Assembly (NCBI GenBank): GCA_030536655.1
Contig: JAUNPN010000004.1
Location: forward strand, 1-52,734
Length of the DNA stretch: 52,734 nucleotides
Origin: a bacterium
GTDB taxonomy: Bacteria > Bacillota > Clostridia > UBA1381
Direction: 5' to 3'
A model generated the notes under the pieces. That model searched no databases, was not told the DNA's origin, and saw only the letters and a list, made by a program, of their open reading frames with translations. The translations under genes and the position numbers were made by a program. This document shows, in pieces, positions 45,932 through 51,538 of the stretch (position 1 is the first letter of the stretch; every line of letters starts with the position of its first letter).

Positions 45932-45960
45932 TTGATAAAAAAATAAATTTATGATACAAT
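45932..45960 (+). promoter_or_regulatory. Promoter of the Rpn-type gene
   Basis: TTGATA (45932-45937), 17 bp, TACAAT (45955-45960), about 40 bases before the start codon. Confidence 0.65.
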
Positions 45961-45998
45961 TAATATATAAAGGATATAAATTTATTGGGAGAAATGAT

Positions 45999-46814
45999 AT
46001 GTCAAAAGAGATAGTTAAGCCGAAAATAGATATTATATTTAGAATGATTTTCGGGGATATAAAGAACAGAGATATGTTGAAGCGGTTTATATCGGATGTA
46101 TTAAGCATACCATATGATGATATTGTAGATTTAGAGATACTGAATGTTGAAATACCGCCGGATACAGTAGACGGGAAGCTTAGCCGAATGGATATACGTC
46201 TTTCGTTGAAGTATCATGTGGTTGATATTGAGATACAGCTGAGGAACAACGGAGATACGGAGGAGAGGTTTCTGTTCTATTGGGCGAGAAATTATTCGGA
46301 AGATTTAAAACGAGGAGATACGTATTCGCAGATAAGAAAAGGGATAGTGTTAAGTATACTTAATTACAATCTGTTTGATGGTACGGAAGAATACCATTCA
46401 AAATTTGTGCCGATGGAGGAAAACAGACATACAATTCTTACAGATAAAATGGAAATCCATATATGTGAACTGCCGAAGGTAAGGACAAGTAAAGATGAGG
46501 GAGATCCAAAAAAGTTATGGATGCAGTTTATTGACGCAGAAAGTGAGGAGGAGTTGGATATGTTGGCAAATGTACAGGTTCCGGAGATCCAAAAGGGGAT
46601 AGAGATAGTAAAGACATTAAGCTCAGACAAGCTTGTAAGGGAGCGTGCAAGGGCGCGTGAGGACGCAATAAGAGATTATAACAGTGCGATAGAATTTGCT
46701 ACCAGAAAAGGAATGGAAAAAGGCAGGACTGATATACTTGACGCGTTACGGAAAATGGGAATTGATGAATCCGCTTTGCGCGCGGCGGAGGAAGCGGTAA
46801 TTAAGGCGGCATAA
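45999..46814 (+). CDS. Rpn-family nuclease / PD-(D/E)XK putative transposase
   Basis: 271 residues. N-terminal KPKIDIIFRMIFGDIKNRDM is the classic start of the family. The nuclease core has RMDIRLSLKYHVVDIEIQLR (about 67-86) with Asp and Glu-x-Gln of the PD-(D/E)XK site, then RFLFYWARNYSEDLKRGDTY. The charged C-terminus is helical (RERARAREDAIRDYNS). Relatives promote RecA-independent recombination in E. coli and may move between strains. The ATG at 45999 is chosen (GGGAG 8 bases upstream). AT-rich and monocistronic, with repeats on its 3' side. Confidence 0.9.
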   Translation: MSKEIVKPKIDIIFRMIFGDIKNRDMLKRFISDVLSIPYDDIVDLEILNVEIPPDTVDGKLSRMDIRLSLKYHVVDIEIQLRNNGDTEERFLFYWARNYSEDLKRGDTYSQIRKGIVLSILNYNLFDGTEEYHSKFVPMEENRHTILTDKMEIHICELPKVRTSKDEGDPKKLWMQFIDAESEEELDMLANVQVPEIQKGIEIVKTLSSDKLVRERARAREDAIRDYNSAIEFATRKGMEKGRTDILDALRKMGIDESALRAAEEAVIKAA

Positions 46815-46878
46815 CTGAAACACCACAGACCGTTTAAAGGGAAATTATCACTGCTGCGTGCTGCTGTTCAGATATTCT

Positions 46879-46973
46879 TATAGACTATACGTAATTAAAG
46901 AAGGGCATATTGCGAAGCCAGATTTTAGGGGCAATGCGGCGGAAATTAATTTACGGATAGGCTTTTAATATTA
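46879..46973. repeat. Palindromic element, AGAGCCTATC family (short form, divergent)
   Basis: TATAGACTATACGTAATTAA at the left pairs with TTAATTTACGGATAGGCTTT at the right; interior GGGCATATTGCGAAGCC matches the element at 3513-3702. Confidence 0.65.
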
Positions 46974-47033
46974 ACGGAATACCCGAACAGCAGCCGGGAA
47001 GCAGTTTATATAAGATTTTCCAATTAAAAACTA

Positions 47034-47062
47034 TTGACTTATTGAATTATATAGGATAAATA
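47034..47062 (+). promoter_or_regulatory. Promoter of the agrA-agrC operon
   Basis: TTGACT (47034-47039), 17 bp, TAAATA (47057-47062). The 22 bp-spaced direct repeats of the two other agr-region promoters are absent here, so agrA-agrC is probably expressed constitutively. Confidence 0.6.
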
Positions 47063-47089
47063 TATTTTCAGTGAAAGCGAGATGATAAA

Positions 47090-47812
47090 ATGCCTCTGAA
47101 CATAGCTTTGTGCGATGATGAAATGTTGGATATTGAGAGGGAGAAGGAACTTATTGAGAGTGTTTTGACAGCATGGCCTCACAGTATAAACTGGGGAATT
47201 GATGTATTTACATCATCGGAGGATATGTTAAAATCGAATAAAACATATAACATGGTATTTCTGGACGTAGAGATGTGCGGAATGAATGGTATTGAAACAG
47301 CGGAAGCTTTGCATAAAAAGAGTCCTGTCAGTTTAATATTTTTTGTAACGCATCATGAGGACTATATGGACGAAGCACTGAATAAGCATGCATTTAGATT
47401 CTGGACAAAGCCTATTAACAGGGCAAGATTGATTTACGGTATTCAGTCGGCGGTGAAGGAAATTAAAATATGTGAGAAAATAGTAAATGTAATGTCTGAT
47501 AGAAAAATGATTCAGATACCCCTGAGGGATATTCTGTATATTTATCACATCGGAAGGCATACTTGTATAGTTACAGCAGACGGGACTTATACAACGACTG
47601 ATACATTCAAGAATGTGGCAGGACAATTGACGGACGTCTGCTTTTTTGAAACGCACGCGAGCTGTTATGTGAATCTGAATTATGTATCGGATTACAGCAA
47701 AACAGGAATAACTTGCAGTTATAACGGAAAGAAGTATAATGCGCTTATTTCTACGAGAAAATATGCAGCTTTTAATAAAAGGTTTAAGGAATGGAGCTGT
47801 GGTTTGCGGTGA
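47090..47812 (+). CDS. agrA: AgrA-type response regulator with LytTR DNA-binding domain
   Basis: 240 residues. Receiver domain 1-120: acidic pocket Asp9/Asp10 (IALCDDEMLD), phospho-acceptor Asp59 (VFLDVEMCGMNGIE), Lys107 (FWTKPI). LytTR domain about 130-238: KMIQIPLRDILYIYHIGRHT and FFETHASCYVNLNYVSDYSK. LytTR regulators bind pairs of direct repeats one or two helical turns apart, which is just what precedes agrD and the candidate RNA. It is translationally coupled to the sensor gene: its stop overlaps a possible agrC start. It is expected to be phosphorylated by AgrC. Confidence 0.93.
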   Translation: MPLNIALCDDEMLDIEREKELIESVLTAWPHSINWGIDVFTSSEDMLKSNKTYNMVFLDVEMCGMNGIETAEALHKKSPVSLIFFVTHHEDYMDEALNKHAFRFWTKPINRARLIYGIQSAVKEIKICEKIVNVMSDRKMIQIPLRDILYIYHIGRHTCIVTADGTYTTTDTFKNVAGQLTDVCFFETHASCYVNLNYVSDYSKTGITCSYNGKKYNALISTRKYAAFNKRFKEWSCGLR

Positions 47813-49050
47813 TGACTTATATTGGATACATATTAGGGCATCTTGGTGAATTTATATTGTTTATATATTATGCAAACACAAGCTTTTATCCAAGAAAAAG
47901 TTATTTAACAAGTAGCCTTATATCATTGTGCGGATATATTGTTCTTTTCGGGATAGGGCTTTGTCAAAATGTGTCTTTATCTATATTAGCATTCTTTATT
48001 GTCAATACTGTGTTATTATTATGTGCATATAATATTAAACTGAAGAGCGCAGTGTTTTACGGTCTTATTTTGGATGTATTATCTGTTATAGGCGAATATG
48101 TAGCGGTATATTTATGGGGTGTAAGTTATAGTGTCGTATGGGAATTTATAGATTCATATCAAGTTTTAGCGTTGTTTGCGGTAAGCAAATTGATATATTT
48201 TATTAGTATTATTGTTTTTAAAAGATTTGAAAATACAACATATGATAATGAATTGCAAACGATGTTGGCAATTATTCCATGTTTGACAATAGTATGCTTG
48301 ACAATAGTAATGAAGAAGGAAATAGATTCTTTATTATTTTTATTAATTTGTGGTGTATTTTTAGTATTCAATATTATAACCTTTTATACAAATACGGGGT
48401 TTAATGAGAAAAATAAAGTTTTAAGAAGTTTACAGGAGGAATTGTTGGAATATCAGCTGTTATCGGAGAAGTATGAGAACACAAAAATAATGAGGCATGA
48501 TTTTCATAAGCAATTAAATGTATTGAAGGGACTGATCGCAGAGGACAATGTTAAGGCAAAGGAATATATGAGGCAGATTCAATTTTCGCAAAGAGAACTG
48601 GACTATGTACAATATACTGATAATAAGATTCTGAATATTCTTTTGGTACAGAAAATAAAAGAGTGTCATGAATACGGAATAGAAATGCATATACATTCAT
48701 CATCACCTAAAATGTCATTTATATCTGATATTGATACTGTTGCGATATTTTCAAATCTGATTGATAATGCCATGGAGGCTTGTATGCAGTCAACGGAAAA
48801 AGAAATTTATGTGGATATGTACACTGTGAATAATTCATATTCCGCTGTAAAGGTTGAGAATAACGCTGATAAAGAACCGTTTGTGATTGACGGCTTGCTG
48901 AGAACCCAAAAGAACAGGAAGGATATACATGGGATTGGAGTTCGAAGTATTAATAATGCTTTGAAAAAATACAACAGTGAGCTGGATTGGTCATATGATA
49001 AAGAAAATAAATTGTTTACTTCAATGATTTTAATTCATATACCGGAATAA
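47791..49050 (+). CDS. agrC: AgrC-type membrane sensor histidine kinase
   Basis: 419 residues. Six or seven membrane helices (about 1-200) form the peptide sensor; then a coiled linker (KNKVLRSLQEELLEYQLLSEKYENTK) in short order, the phospho-acceptor His236 in IMRHDFHKQLNVLKG, the N box FSNLIDNAMEAC (Asn326) and the G box HGIGVRSI (about 380-387). This is the HPK10 layout of peptide-sensing kinases. Two starts are possible: 47791, inside agrA, and ATG at 47812, which overlaps the agrA stop as TGATG. The longer one is listed. AT-rich compared with its neighbours. Confidence 0.93.
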   Translation: MELWFAVMTYIGYILGHLGEFILFIYYANTSFYPRKSYLTSSLISLCGYIVLFGIGLCQNVSLSILAFFIVNTVLLLCAYNIKLKSAVFYGLILDVLSVIGEYVAVYLWGVSYSVVWEFIDSYQVLALFAVSKLIYFISIIVFKRFENTTYDNELQTMLAIIPCLTIVCLTIVMKKEIDSLLFLLICGVFLVFNIITFYTNTGFNEKNKVLRSLQEELLEYQLLSEKYENTKIMRHDFHKQLNVLKGLIAEDNVKAKEYMRQIQFSQRELDYVQYTDNKILNILLVQKIKECHEYGIEMHIHSSSPKMSFISDIDTVAIFSNLIDNAMEACMQSTEKEIYVDMYTVNNSYSAVKVENNADKEPFVIDGLLRTQKNRKDIHGIGVRSINNALKKYNSELDWSYDKENKLFTSMILIHIPE

Positions 49051-49053
49051 AAA

Positions 49054-49125
49054 ACAGCATTTAAACGTTTTTGCGACAGCATTTGAACAATAATACTTGC
49101 AAAAATAGATGGAATATGTTATACT
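49054..49125 (+). promoter_or_regulatory. agrDB promoter with twin direct-repeat operator
   Basis: ACAGCATTTAAAC (49054-49066) and ACAGCATTTGAAC (49076-49088) lie 22 bp apart; 8 bp later TTGCAA (49097-49102), 17 bp, TATACT (49120-49125). Repeat spacing and position are as expected for a LytTR activator such as AgrA. The same arrangement recurs at 50002-50073. Confidence 0.85.
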
Positions 49126-49151
49126 GTAAACAAAAAAAAGGGGTGATAAAA

Positions 49152-49307
49152 ATGAAAAATTGTTTAAGAAAGATAGCTGCGGCAGCAGTTTCTGTTATAC
49201 CTGCTATGGCGGCTATTGCTATGACAATCAGTGCGAATAATATCGCAAGTCCTTTTATAGGACAGCCGGTTCCGCCTGAAAGCTTAAAAAAGTACAGGAA
49301 GTTTTAA
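49152..49307 (+). CDS. agrD: AgrD-type autoinducer peptide precursor, serine-lactone candidate
   Basis: 51 residues: amphipathic N-terminal leader (KNCLRKIAAAAVSVIPAMAA), then IASPFIGQPVPPESLKKYRKF as signal core plus charged C-terminal recognition tail. The QPVPPESL block corresponds to the conserved PxxP...L region after the ring in known AgrD proteins. There is no Cys in the signal region; Ser33 in ASPFIG is the only nucleophile that can close a ring, so a lactone SPFIG or SPFI is predicted. The only Cys (Cys4) is in the leader. GGGGTG is the ribosome binding site. It lies 3 bp before agrB. The mature peptide and its exact N-terminus cannot be read from sequence. Confidence 0.85.
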   Translation: MKNCLRKIAAAAVSVIPAMAAIAMTISANNIASPFIGQPVPPESLKKYRKF

Positions 49308-49310
49308 AAA

Positions 49311-49892
49311 ATGTTTCACGCATTTTCGGAACGAATTATTGCGTATGCAGTGAAAAACGGTTTGCTGGATAGTGAGAAAGCAGAAGAATACATATATGGA
49401 TTAGAGCTGAGTATATCCGTATCAGCGAGTTATATTTCTGTTCTGTTAATAGGTTTTATAATGGGAATGCTGCCCGAAGCGGCGCTGTTCCTTTTCCTAT
49501 ATGTGACAATCAGGCGTTTTGCCGGGGGATTTCATTTTGAATCTCAGGTAGTTTGTTTTTTATCTATGTATATTATCAGTCCGTTGACATTTTTGATCAT
49601 AAGACACGGAGGAGATAGTATTCAGCTTTGGTCCATAGTGATGGCAGCATCAGTACTGACAATACTTCTGCTTTCGCCGGTTCCTGCGGTAGAAAAACCG
49701 ATAGATACGAAAGAAAACGTTATTTACGGAAGGATTTCAAGGGCGATAAGTATTATTGTTAGTATTATCTATGTTGTGTTATGCTTTTCACAGCATATAT
49801 ACATTGCAAAGATTATATCATCTACAATGTGTGTTGTAGCAATACTTGAGATTTTGGGAAAAATCAAATATATACTGCATAATCGTTTATAG
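49311..49892 (+). CDS. agrB: AgrB-type peptide-processing membrane endopeptidase
   Basis: 193 residues, five or six hydrophobic segments. The catalytic block is TIRRFAGGFHFESQVVC with Arg68, His75 and Cys82; the His-to-Cys spacing of 7 is the same as in S. aureus AgrB (His77, Cys84). AgrB cuts the AgrD tail and joins the new C-terminus to the ring nucleophile. It follows agrD by 3 bases, so the two proteins are made together. A strong terminator follows at 49894. Confidence 0.95.
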   Translation: MFHAFSERIIAYAVKNGLLDSEKAEEYIYGLELSISVSASYISVLLIGFIMGMLPEAALFLFLYVTIRRFAGGFHFESQVVCFLSMYIISPLTFLIIRHGGDSIQLWSIVMAASVLTILLLSPVPAVEKPIDTKENVIYGRISRAISIIVSIIYVVLCFSQHIYIAKIISSTMCVVAILEILGKIKYILHNRL

Positions 49893-49893
49893 G

Positions 49894-49939
49894 AATATAG
49901 GGAAGTGTCAGTCACTGATGCTGTCCCTATATTTTTTTT
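49894..49939 (+). terminator. Terminator of agrDB
   Basis: AATATAGGGA (49894-49903) pairs with TCCCTATATT (49924-49933), with an extra TCAGT-c-ACTGA hairpin in the loop and eight T at the end. Confidence 0.88.
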
Positions 49940-49956
49940 GAAAAGGTTAATATTGA

Positions 49957-49991
49957 AACGCTTCTCAGGAATGCAGGAGAAGCGTTATTTT
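49957..49991 (+). terminator. Second hairpin between agrB and the next promoter
   Basis: AACGCTTCTC (49957-49966) pairs with GAGAAGCGTT (49977-49986), then ATTTTG. Either a back-up terminator or an insulator before the next agr-type promoter. Confidence 0.65.
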
Positions 49992-50001
49992 GTACCAAAG
50001 T

Positions 50002-50073
50002 TCAGCATTTGAACAAGAATACGACAGCATTTGAGCAAGGTGTATTGCAAAATAAAAAATAATATGCTATAAT
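50002..50073 (+). promoter_or_regulatory. Second agr-type promoter with twin direct-repeat operator
   Basis: TCAGCATTTGAAC (50002-50014) and ACAGCATTTGAGC (50024-50036), 22 bp apart; then 8 bp, TTGCAA (50045-50050), 17 bp, TATAAT (50068-50073). Each distance equals that of the agrDB promoter. The arrangement recalls P2/P3 of the S. aureus agr locus. Confidence 0.85.
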
Positions 50074-50079
50074 TTATCA

Positions 50080-50298
50080 AGAACAGAGAAAATTTATAGA
50101 TTTCCGGAGTAATGTATACGGAGATTTATATTTAATATTGCTGCCTTCATACAAAAATATTTTATATCCCGTGTAAGCTGTGGTGCGGAAAAGCACCGCA
50201 CCACAGCCGATGTCCCTTTTGCGGGCATGAAGCCGACATAAATATTTCTGCTTTAAATAAGAAGGGCTGCTGCAAAACAAAGTTTTGCGGCAGCCTTT
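50080..50298 (+). ncRNA. Candidate agr-controlled effector RNA (RNAIII-like in position)
   Basis: The transcript from the second agr-type promoter would start near 50080 and end at the hairpin at 50265-50295, about 218 bases. No frame longer than about 12 codons with a plausible ribosome binding site exists in it. It contains a perfect 12 bp hairpin (GCTGTGGTGCGG, 50177-50188, with CCGCACCACAGC, 50196-50207) and a smaller one (ATGTCCC/GGGCAT, 50210-50228). No plus-strand gene follows, so the transcript has no coding target; reading through the terminator it would be antisense to the GltD-like gene. Existence and function are inferred from promoter and terminator alone. Confidence 0.6.
50265..50298. 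terminator. Bidirectional terminator (candidate RNA and GltD-like gene)
   Basis: GGCTGCTGCAAAAC (50265-50278) pairs with GTTTTGCGGCAGCC (50282-50295) across AAA. TTT follows on the plus strand and CTTCTTATTT on the minus strand. Confidence 0.82.
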
Positions 50299-50302
50299 AA
50301 AT

Positions 50303-51538
50303 TTATTTGATTTCGTCCAGCGGAAGTCCCTGCATGTACTCATGCATTACTTCTGCAACCTGTTTAGAGTACTTAACTGCTTCAACAACAGTTTTTGCAC
50401 CTCTTACAACATCGCCCGAAGCAAAGATTCCGTCGCGCGTTGTTTCGCCAAACTTGTTTGTCACAAGCAGTCCGCGGTCATTTACTTTAAGACCGGTTGT
50501 ATTGGAAACGATACGCGAATTCGGTCCCTGGCTGATTGCGATAATTGTTGAGTCAGCCTCGTAAAGCTTCTCTGTACCTAAGATTGCGTCGAGATGACCG
50601 TAGCCGTCGCATTCAAGCTCGCTCATGATAACGCCCTTGTCTACAATTTCAATCGGTTCAACGTGAGTTACAAATTCAACACCGTCAATTGCCGCATATT
50701 CAACCTCGCGGGGTGACGCTGCAAGGTGGTCGTTACGCGAAAATACGGTTACCTTTTCACAGCCGTGTCTTAGCGCTGTACGCGCAACGTCCATTGCCGC
50801 GTTGCCGGCGCCGATAATATTCAGGCTCTTGCCGAGGTTGTACGCGTCCGGGTTGACCAGGTAATTTATCGCAAAGTGAACATTACCGAGTGTCTCGCCC
50901 TTAATATGCAGCATATTCGGCTTCCATACGCCGGTGCCGATAAAGATAGCCTTGTAGCCGTCGCGGAACATATCATCAATGGTTATTGTTGTTCCGATTG
51001 CTGTGTTCGGACGGATTTTGATTCCAAGACTCTCCATTTTATCGCGGTACTTGTCAATAATGGTTTTCGGAAGTCTGAACTCCGGAATACCGTAGCGGAG
51101 TACTCCTCCTATCTTTTCTTTTGACTCGAAAAGCGTTATGTCATAACCCTTCTGGGCAAGAATAATTGCGATTGTGATTCCTGCCGGACCCGCGCCGATA
51201 ATGCCTGCCTTGATACCGTTCTTCTCAATTTCACCGAACTTAAGCTTGTCAAAATAGTTCGATGAAATATAATTCTCAATACTTGAAAACTGAACCGGAG
51301 CACCCTTTCTGTTCATAACACAGTGACCTTCACACTGATTTTCGTGGTTGCATATGAGCGAACAGATGATTGAAAGCGGGTTGTTTTCAAACAATGTCTT
51401 TCCGGCTTCATTTATCTCGCCGCGAAGAAACATCTGAATAACTTCCGGAATAGATGTGTTTATCGGACAGCCGGTGCGGCAGAGCGGTTTTTTACAGTTA
51501 AGACATCTTTTTGCCTCGTTAATTACATTAAGTGCCAT
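50303..51538 (-). CDS. GltD-like FAD/NADPH oxidoreductase with Fe-S N-terminus
   Basis: 411 residues. N-terminal Cys clusters CLNCKKPLCRTGCP and CNHENQCEGHC bind [4Fe-4S] centres. FAD site: AGIIGAGPAGITIAI (about 110-124). NADPH site: SLNIIGAGNAAMDVARTALR (about 243-262). The C-terminal FASGDVVRGAKTVVEAVKYSKQV is the second FAD motif. Relatives include the glutamate synthase small subunit, NfnB-like transhydrogenase and other electron-transfer subunits. No large glutamate synthase gene is adjacent, so the partner is open; electron transfer from NAD(P)H is the safe statement. It follows the KdgK-like gene by 22 bp and probably shares its transcript. Confidence 0.9.
   Translation of the reverse strand: MALNVINEAKRCLNCKKPLCRTGCPINTSIPEVIQMFLRGEINEAGKTLFENNPLSIICSLICNHENQCEGHCVMNRKGAPVQFSSIENYISSNYFDKLKFGEIEKNGIKAGIIGAGPAGITIAIILAQKGYDITLFESKEKIGGVLRYGIPEFRLPKTIIDKYRDKMESLGIKIRPNTAIGTTITIDDMFRDGYKAIFIGTGVWKPNMLHIKGETLGNVHFAINYLVNPDAYNLGKSLNIIGAGNAAMDVARTALRHGCEKVTVFSRNDHLAASPREVEYAAIDGVEFVTHVEPIEIVDKGVIMSELECDGYGHLDAILGTEKLYEADSTIIAISQGPNSRIVSNTTGLKVNDRGLLVTNKFGETTRDGIFASGDVVRGAKTVVEAVKYSKQVAEVMHEYMQGLPLDEIK

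Follow-up and report, generated by a model that had tools for sequence, protein, structure and literature searches.

In Staphylococcus aureus, AgrA binds two direct repeats at each of two promoters, P2 of the agr operon and P3 of a regulatory RNA (PMC4227749, PMC3754575). For the agr2 locus of Clostridioides difficile (agrACDB), no RNAIII transcript has been identified and a single transcript has been proposed (PMC3754575). The C. difficile regulator RgaR, an orphan encoded outside the agr locus, controls agrB1D1 and the small RNA SpoZ, several promoters in all, via VirR-like direct repeats, and its kinase RgaS is unresponsive to AgrD1 (PMC10602386). In Clostridium perfringens, the VirS-VirR system operates with a twin VirR box upstream of VR-RNA, downstream of the agr signal (PMC4963840). 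Here we describe an agr locus on a stretch of 52,734 nucleotides (hereafter the window; contig JAUNPN010000004.1, assembly GCA_030536655.1) from a bacterium of the UBA1381 lineage of Clostridia, in which two promoters with the same twin direct repeats flank agrD-agrB. The sequence comparisons make it highly probable that this complete agr locus is wired in a P2/P3-like manner, with AgrA driving agrDB and a second unit, in the window a predicted short structured non-coding RNA.

As in S. aureus, two promoters carry paired direct repeats and one of them serves agr genes. The staphylococcal P2 and P3 are however divergent, whereas here P3 follows agrB and points the same way; moreover, agrAC reside outside the P2 unit (gene order A-C-D-B), the spacers are 17 bp, the half-site sequence is different, AgrD has Ser instead of Cys, and the predicted RNA is unrelated to RNAIII and shorter (~215 nt). 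The order agrA-C-D-B and a LytTR-type AgrA are shared with C. difficile agr2 (PMC3754575), from which the present locus is distinguished by identical boxes at a P2 inside the gene cluster and at a P3 downstream of it. Analogously to RgaS-RgaR, direct repeats serve an agr unit and a small RNA (here predicted), but here a single locus has the boxes to itself, and in contrast to the scattered parts of the C. perfringens VirR/VR-RNA system all components are clustered. What appears new on the best reading of these comparisons is that an agr system outside staphylococci carries two AgrA-type promoters, the P3 of which follows agrB instead of diverging; a search of the open-access literature turned up neither a P3-type promoter situated downstream of agrB nor per-locus private boxes.

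Two promoters with matched twin repeats

The twin-repeat architecture, which an earlier note on this DNA had claimed for both promoters, proved exact on re-measurement (Table 1), and both -10 boxes are of the TGn extended type, with the TG one base upstream. The sites are separated by 948 bp. Identical positions amount to 23 of 26 in the repeats and 11 of 12 in the hexamers, compared with 15 of 34 in the rest, and repeats and core elements thus stand out from drifting surroundings, congruent with the note's observation of near-identical repeats among differing flanking bases. No comparable pair is present in the agrA upstream region; the promoter of agrA-agrC lacks the repeats, as had been noted.

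We then turn to specificity. With up to 3 mismatches allowed, the repeat pair is found at two places in the window, with 0.00 expected from shuffled sequence. Across the whole host genome (3.49 Mb, 98% complete), which the search covered, 2 pairs are found at 0 mismatches and 1 with 3 mismatches, the latter on another contig. Hence the pair is not spread over many unrelated loci, and the genome search for 12-mer pairs at 22 bp that the earlier note suggested returns no good site beyond the two promoters. The single 12-mer alone is not significant (26 matches with up to 2 mismatches, 18.7 expected); the significance lies in pairing and spacing. Half-sites like ACCGTTTAG appear to resemble known LytTR sites. 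The exact repeat-pair pattern has no match in viral contigs.

Approximately 45 agr loci were compared, among them loci of named metagenome-assembled Clostridia of animal gut and rumen and of one more distant uncultured Ruminococcus, the family sample consisting of 70 genomes with AgrB in 28. The relatives carrying names were reached by an AgrB alignment query, while a single-sequence AgrB query reached none. In nine more agrA-C-D-B loci, agrD is preceded by a twin direct repeat and a second such repeat occupies the P3 position; the half-sites are specific to the locus (ACCGTTTAGG, ACCGCTTAGG, ACCGAAGTTG, ACCAATCCTG, ACCAATCGTG, ACCATTCAGG, ACAAATGTTG and others) and matched within it. The repeats of these relatives are at 20 bp, with a sigma-70 core, TTGACa/t-17-TATAAT, 19 bp further on. 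Mean identity between P2 and P3 half-sites is 0.88 within loci and 0.57 between them, and 0 of 100,000 label permutations reach the observed value, a figure that serves as a guide rather than an exact probability given the kinship among loci. Two of the nine require qualification: the contig of C194 ends 18 bp after agrB, its P3 site on contig C8 being tentatively joined via box identity, and G036 is a weaker match set by eye. The score over all four repeats is 48-57 of 60 in these loci and mostly 33-45 in other agr loci, where the high-scoring exceptions are an AT-rich one at 50 and L070, with apparently real boxes. L070 (G052:C59, 3195-4150) has the order agrB-agrD and three twin-repeat promoters of the ACCATTCA type at 21 bp.

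Because the half-site varies by locus yet matches within each locus, and no other good site exists genome-wide, comparison lends strong support to control of both promoters by a single LytTR regulator, the local AgrA, in line with the P2/P3 analogy drawn in the earlier note. We infer the following chain, from AgrA binding and activation via transcription from 50080 to RNA function. The autoinducing peptide (AIP) would be sensed by AgrC, leading to phosphorylation of AgrA, which would bind the pair of LytTR half-sites, spaced by about two helical turns, ahead of a core promoter with a weak -35. Bound AgrA would switch on agrDB, representing autoinduction, and at the identical box downstream of agrB would turn on a second transcription unit from 50080 as output. 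In the window, this unit would be a ~215-nt structured RNA that ends at a strong terminator and acts as effector or co-effector.

The coding part of the locus is in agreement with such a system, with an AgrB peptidase, AgrD beside agrB, and an adjacent histidine kinase and LytTR regulator. The protein identities given earlier (LytTR response regulator, GHKL kinase, AgrB and AgrD, the last above the TIGR04223 cut-off) were all recovered, and in a PDB sequence search the receiver domain was the only part matched. In the AgrDs of the window and 12 relatives, the ring is preceded by a conserved Asn and followed by Gly-Gln, and the tail is of the GQPxPP..KKYRKF type. The five-residue AIP core is predicted to be SPFIG, and as its ring Ser occupies the usual Cys position, a lactone ring is predicted. 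In several AgrDs of the clade, those of L091, L083, L067, L056, L081, L095 and the window, Ser or Thr replaces the ring Cys, again predicting a lactone and not a thiolactone. Directly upstream of the agr locus, at 45951-46814, a PD-(D/E)XK nuclease family transposase-type protein (PF12784) is encoded.

Table 1. Features of the agr locus in the window, with copies of the antisense RNA R1 found in other loci
Feature	Position	Strand	Details
agrA-like response regulator	47090..47812	+	Response_reg + LytTR; Pfam PF04397 E 2e-13, PF00072 E 3e-12
agrC-like sensor kinase, GHKL ATPase domain	47791..49050	+	Pfam PF14501 E 2e-18
P2-like regulator box, upstream of agrD	49054..49088	+	ACAGCATTTAAAC 49054-49066, ACAGCATTTGAAC 49076-49088, direct repeat at 22 bp
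P2-like core promoter, 8 bp past box	49097..49125	+	TTGCAA 49097-49102, 17 bp, TATACT 49120-49125
agrD, 51 aa	49152..49307	+	TIGR04223 22.5 bits, cut-off 19; alignment of 13 AgrDs
agrB peptidase	49311..49892	+	Pfam PF04647 117 bits, cut-off 23
Intrinsic terminator hairpin after agrB, then T run	49893..49934	+	-21.7 kcal/mol, z -6.5
Second hairpin between agrB and P3	49957..49986	+	-15.7 kcal/mol, z -4.1
P3-like regulator box, downstream of agrB	50002..50036	+	TCAGCATTTGAAC 50002-50014, ACAGCATTTGAGC 50024-50036, direct repeat at 22 bp
P3-like core promoter, 8 bp past box	50045..50073	+	TTGCAA 50045-50050, 17 bp, TATAAT 50068-50073
Predicted non-coding RNA, ~215-220 nt	50080..50300	+	fold, open reading frame list, Rfam search
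12-bp hairpin inside predicted RNA	50177..50207	+	all pairs kept in C218 copy, four compensatory changes
Terminator hairpin ending predicted RNA	50262..50298	+	bidirectional, common to opposing gltD-like gene
R1 antisense RNA copies	L059:2251-2326; L194 (G000:C78:13568-13641); L076:3577-3652; L074:2007-2079; others		

Predicted output of the downstream promoter

As two strong hairpins lie between agrB and P3, the agrDB transcript and the second unit would be separate. The earlier note had suggested a second, separately controlled output; the separate unit is upheld, while its control would rather be common with agrDB. Downstream of P3, no open reading frame of at least 25 aa (ATG, GTG or TTG start) is present on the + strand of 50080-50300, and the fold of 50080-50306 reaches -80.1 kcal/mol (z -7.0 versus shuffles). 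No agr-associated Rfam family matches the window region or 11 related loci, and RNAIII yields no match in 46800-50800 up to an E-value of 5. The P3 output in the window is best read as a candidate regulatory RNA of ~215 nt, likely the effector or co-effector, which may act RNAIII-like in the wiring, yet is not a member of the RNAIII family. We also considered a Cys-rich peptide from this stretch (a 54-codon stop-to-stop frame with CPFCG), but discarded it for lack of a start codon and Pfam matches at noise level only.

Parts of the predicted RNA recur in the host genome. A 71-bp two-hairpin module (50133-50203) has two genome copies, the other of which is diverged and sits on contig C218 (L060:2483-2553, - strand), flanked by an immunity-like gene and an RHS fragment. 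The hairpin that ends the RNA (GGCTGCTGCAAAAC..GTTTTGCGGCAGCC) is a copy of a dispersed terminator-like repeat with more than 10 genome copies. The family-wide search for the window RNA recovered a single partial paralogue, which lies in the host genome itself; a match in G003 was dismissed as chance, since it falls inside a coding region.

The window differs here from most relatives, whose usual P3 output is a leader with a protein: in at least five relatives, P3 is followed by a leader of 200-660 nt and then a secreted or surface protein. These include small proteins with a common signal peptide, BspA-type leucine-rich repeat proteins and an SLH protein, the last at the second C8 site. A conserved element crosses many of the P3 leaders. 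We rejected it as a sense-strand structure, the fold being nearly structureless, while the opposite strand holds a TTGACA-17-TATACT promoter and a ~70-nt hairpin RNA with a T-run. For this antisense RNA (R1), 7 of 15 consensus pairs covary, and its covariance model identifies 18 copies in 11 of the 70 family genomes; four copies outside the model-building set adjoin agr genes (C224, G044:C7, G037:C145 and G016:C25). An Rfam scan of the 11 related loci gave no match to R1, an undescribed RNA, and its covariance model finds nothing in the window's agr region.

The protein outputs of the relatives bring forward the main rival for the RNA-function step, namely that P3 is AgrA-controlled but a relic, the protein output having been lost and the 215-nt stretch representing a functionless terminated remnant. 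We find this somewhat doubtful, though worth serious consideration, as the window has no such open reading frame where at least five relatives encode a secreted or surface protein. However, the P3 boxes and core have remained intact relative to P2 while the neighbouring bases drifted, which argues for maintained use. The strong fold also speaks against a remnant, as does the hairpin kept in the paralogous copy through compensatory changes.

Private boxes among paralogous agr sets

The host genome contains at least 4 agrAC sets with different boxes, and six agrB matches. While the window set uses ACAGCATTTGAAC, the box of the C174 set (ACCGTTTAGGCA) is found genome-wide only at its own P2 and P3. 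That of C194 with C8 (ACAAATGTTGCA) is present at three sites genome-wide, P2 and two on contig C8, and the C78 set (ACCGATCTTG/ACCGATGTTG) is an agrAC pair beside which no agrB was found. With several agr sets in one genome, including the extra agrAC on C78, the repeats could in principle be bound by another LytTR regulator or by AgrA paralogues instead of the adjacent AgrA. This is quite improbable, as at each paralogous locus both promoters carry a box distinct from those elsewhere, box identity goes with the locus, and the box patterns of C174 and C194 find no site in the window.

If specificities are private, differing residues would be expected among the AgrA paralogues at the position of S. 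aureus AgrA N201, which contacts DNA (PMC4227749). At this position the window protein has Ala, that of C174 has Arg, and those of C194 and C78 both have Gln, differences that fit separate box specificities, though confounded by clade.

Additional loci in this sample deviate from the full gene set. At G000:C78 (L194), G000:C224 (L214) and G044:C7 (L210), an agrC-like kinase is followed directly by a P3-like cassette (antisense RNA and secreted or surface protein), with no agrD or agrB seen between. On C78 agrA is also seen; twin boxes can be clearly made out on this contig and on G044:C7, and are doubtful on C224. Possibly, these three represent receiver-only systems. A second box of the C194 type, at G000:C8:2685 (L195), is preceded by an agrC 3'-end-like sequence and followed by an SLH-domain protein, and has the appearance of an output cassette that was recombined or duplicated.

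That the two window sites, near-identical and 948 bp apart, go back to one promoter segment duplicated recently, with no regulatory meaning, is hardly credible and largely refuted by the conservation pattern, which is limited to repeats and hexamers, and the layout recurs with different sequences in nine loci.

Implications for agr signaling in the clade

Some observations weigh against P2/P3-like wiring with an RNA output in the window. The spacing is 22 and 21 bp in the window but 20 and 19 bp in most relatives, P3 is not detectable in three clade loci (L082, L091 and L095) and is doubtful in L083, and alignment of the window RNA with the P3 leaders of relatives reveals no detectable similarity. 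Furthermore, the window's genus is represented by a single genome in the collection, this one.

As a tentative picture, this uncultured Clostridia clade may maintain several insulated agr channels per cell. In each, a private AgrA box would flank agrDB on both sides and drive a P3 output, in the typical case an RNA-rich module (long leader and ~70-nt antisense hairpin RNA) before a secreted protein; the window output could now be a stand-alone, RNAIII-like effector RNA. The pair of P2 and P3 with RNAIII is known from staphylococci, and the clade would show equal logic in a different geometry. Because paralogous systems of a single genome differ in box sequence, the clade also provides a natural data set on the way LytTR regulators gain private DNA specificity. 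Finally, testable agr outputs in gut bacteria can be named: the candidate RNA in the window, and secreted and surface proteins in the relatives.
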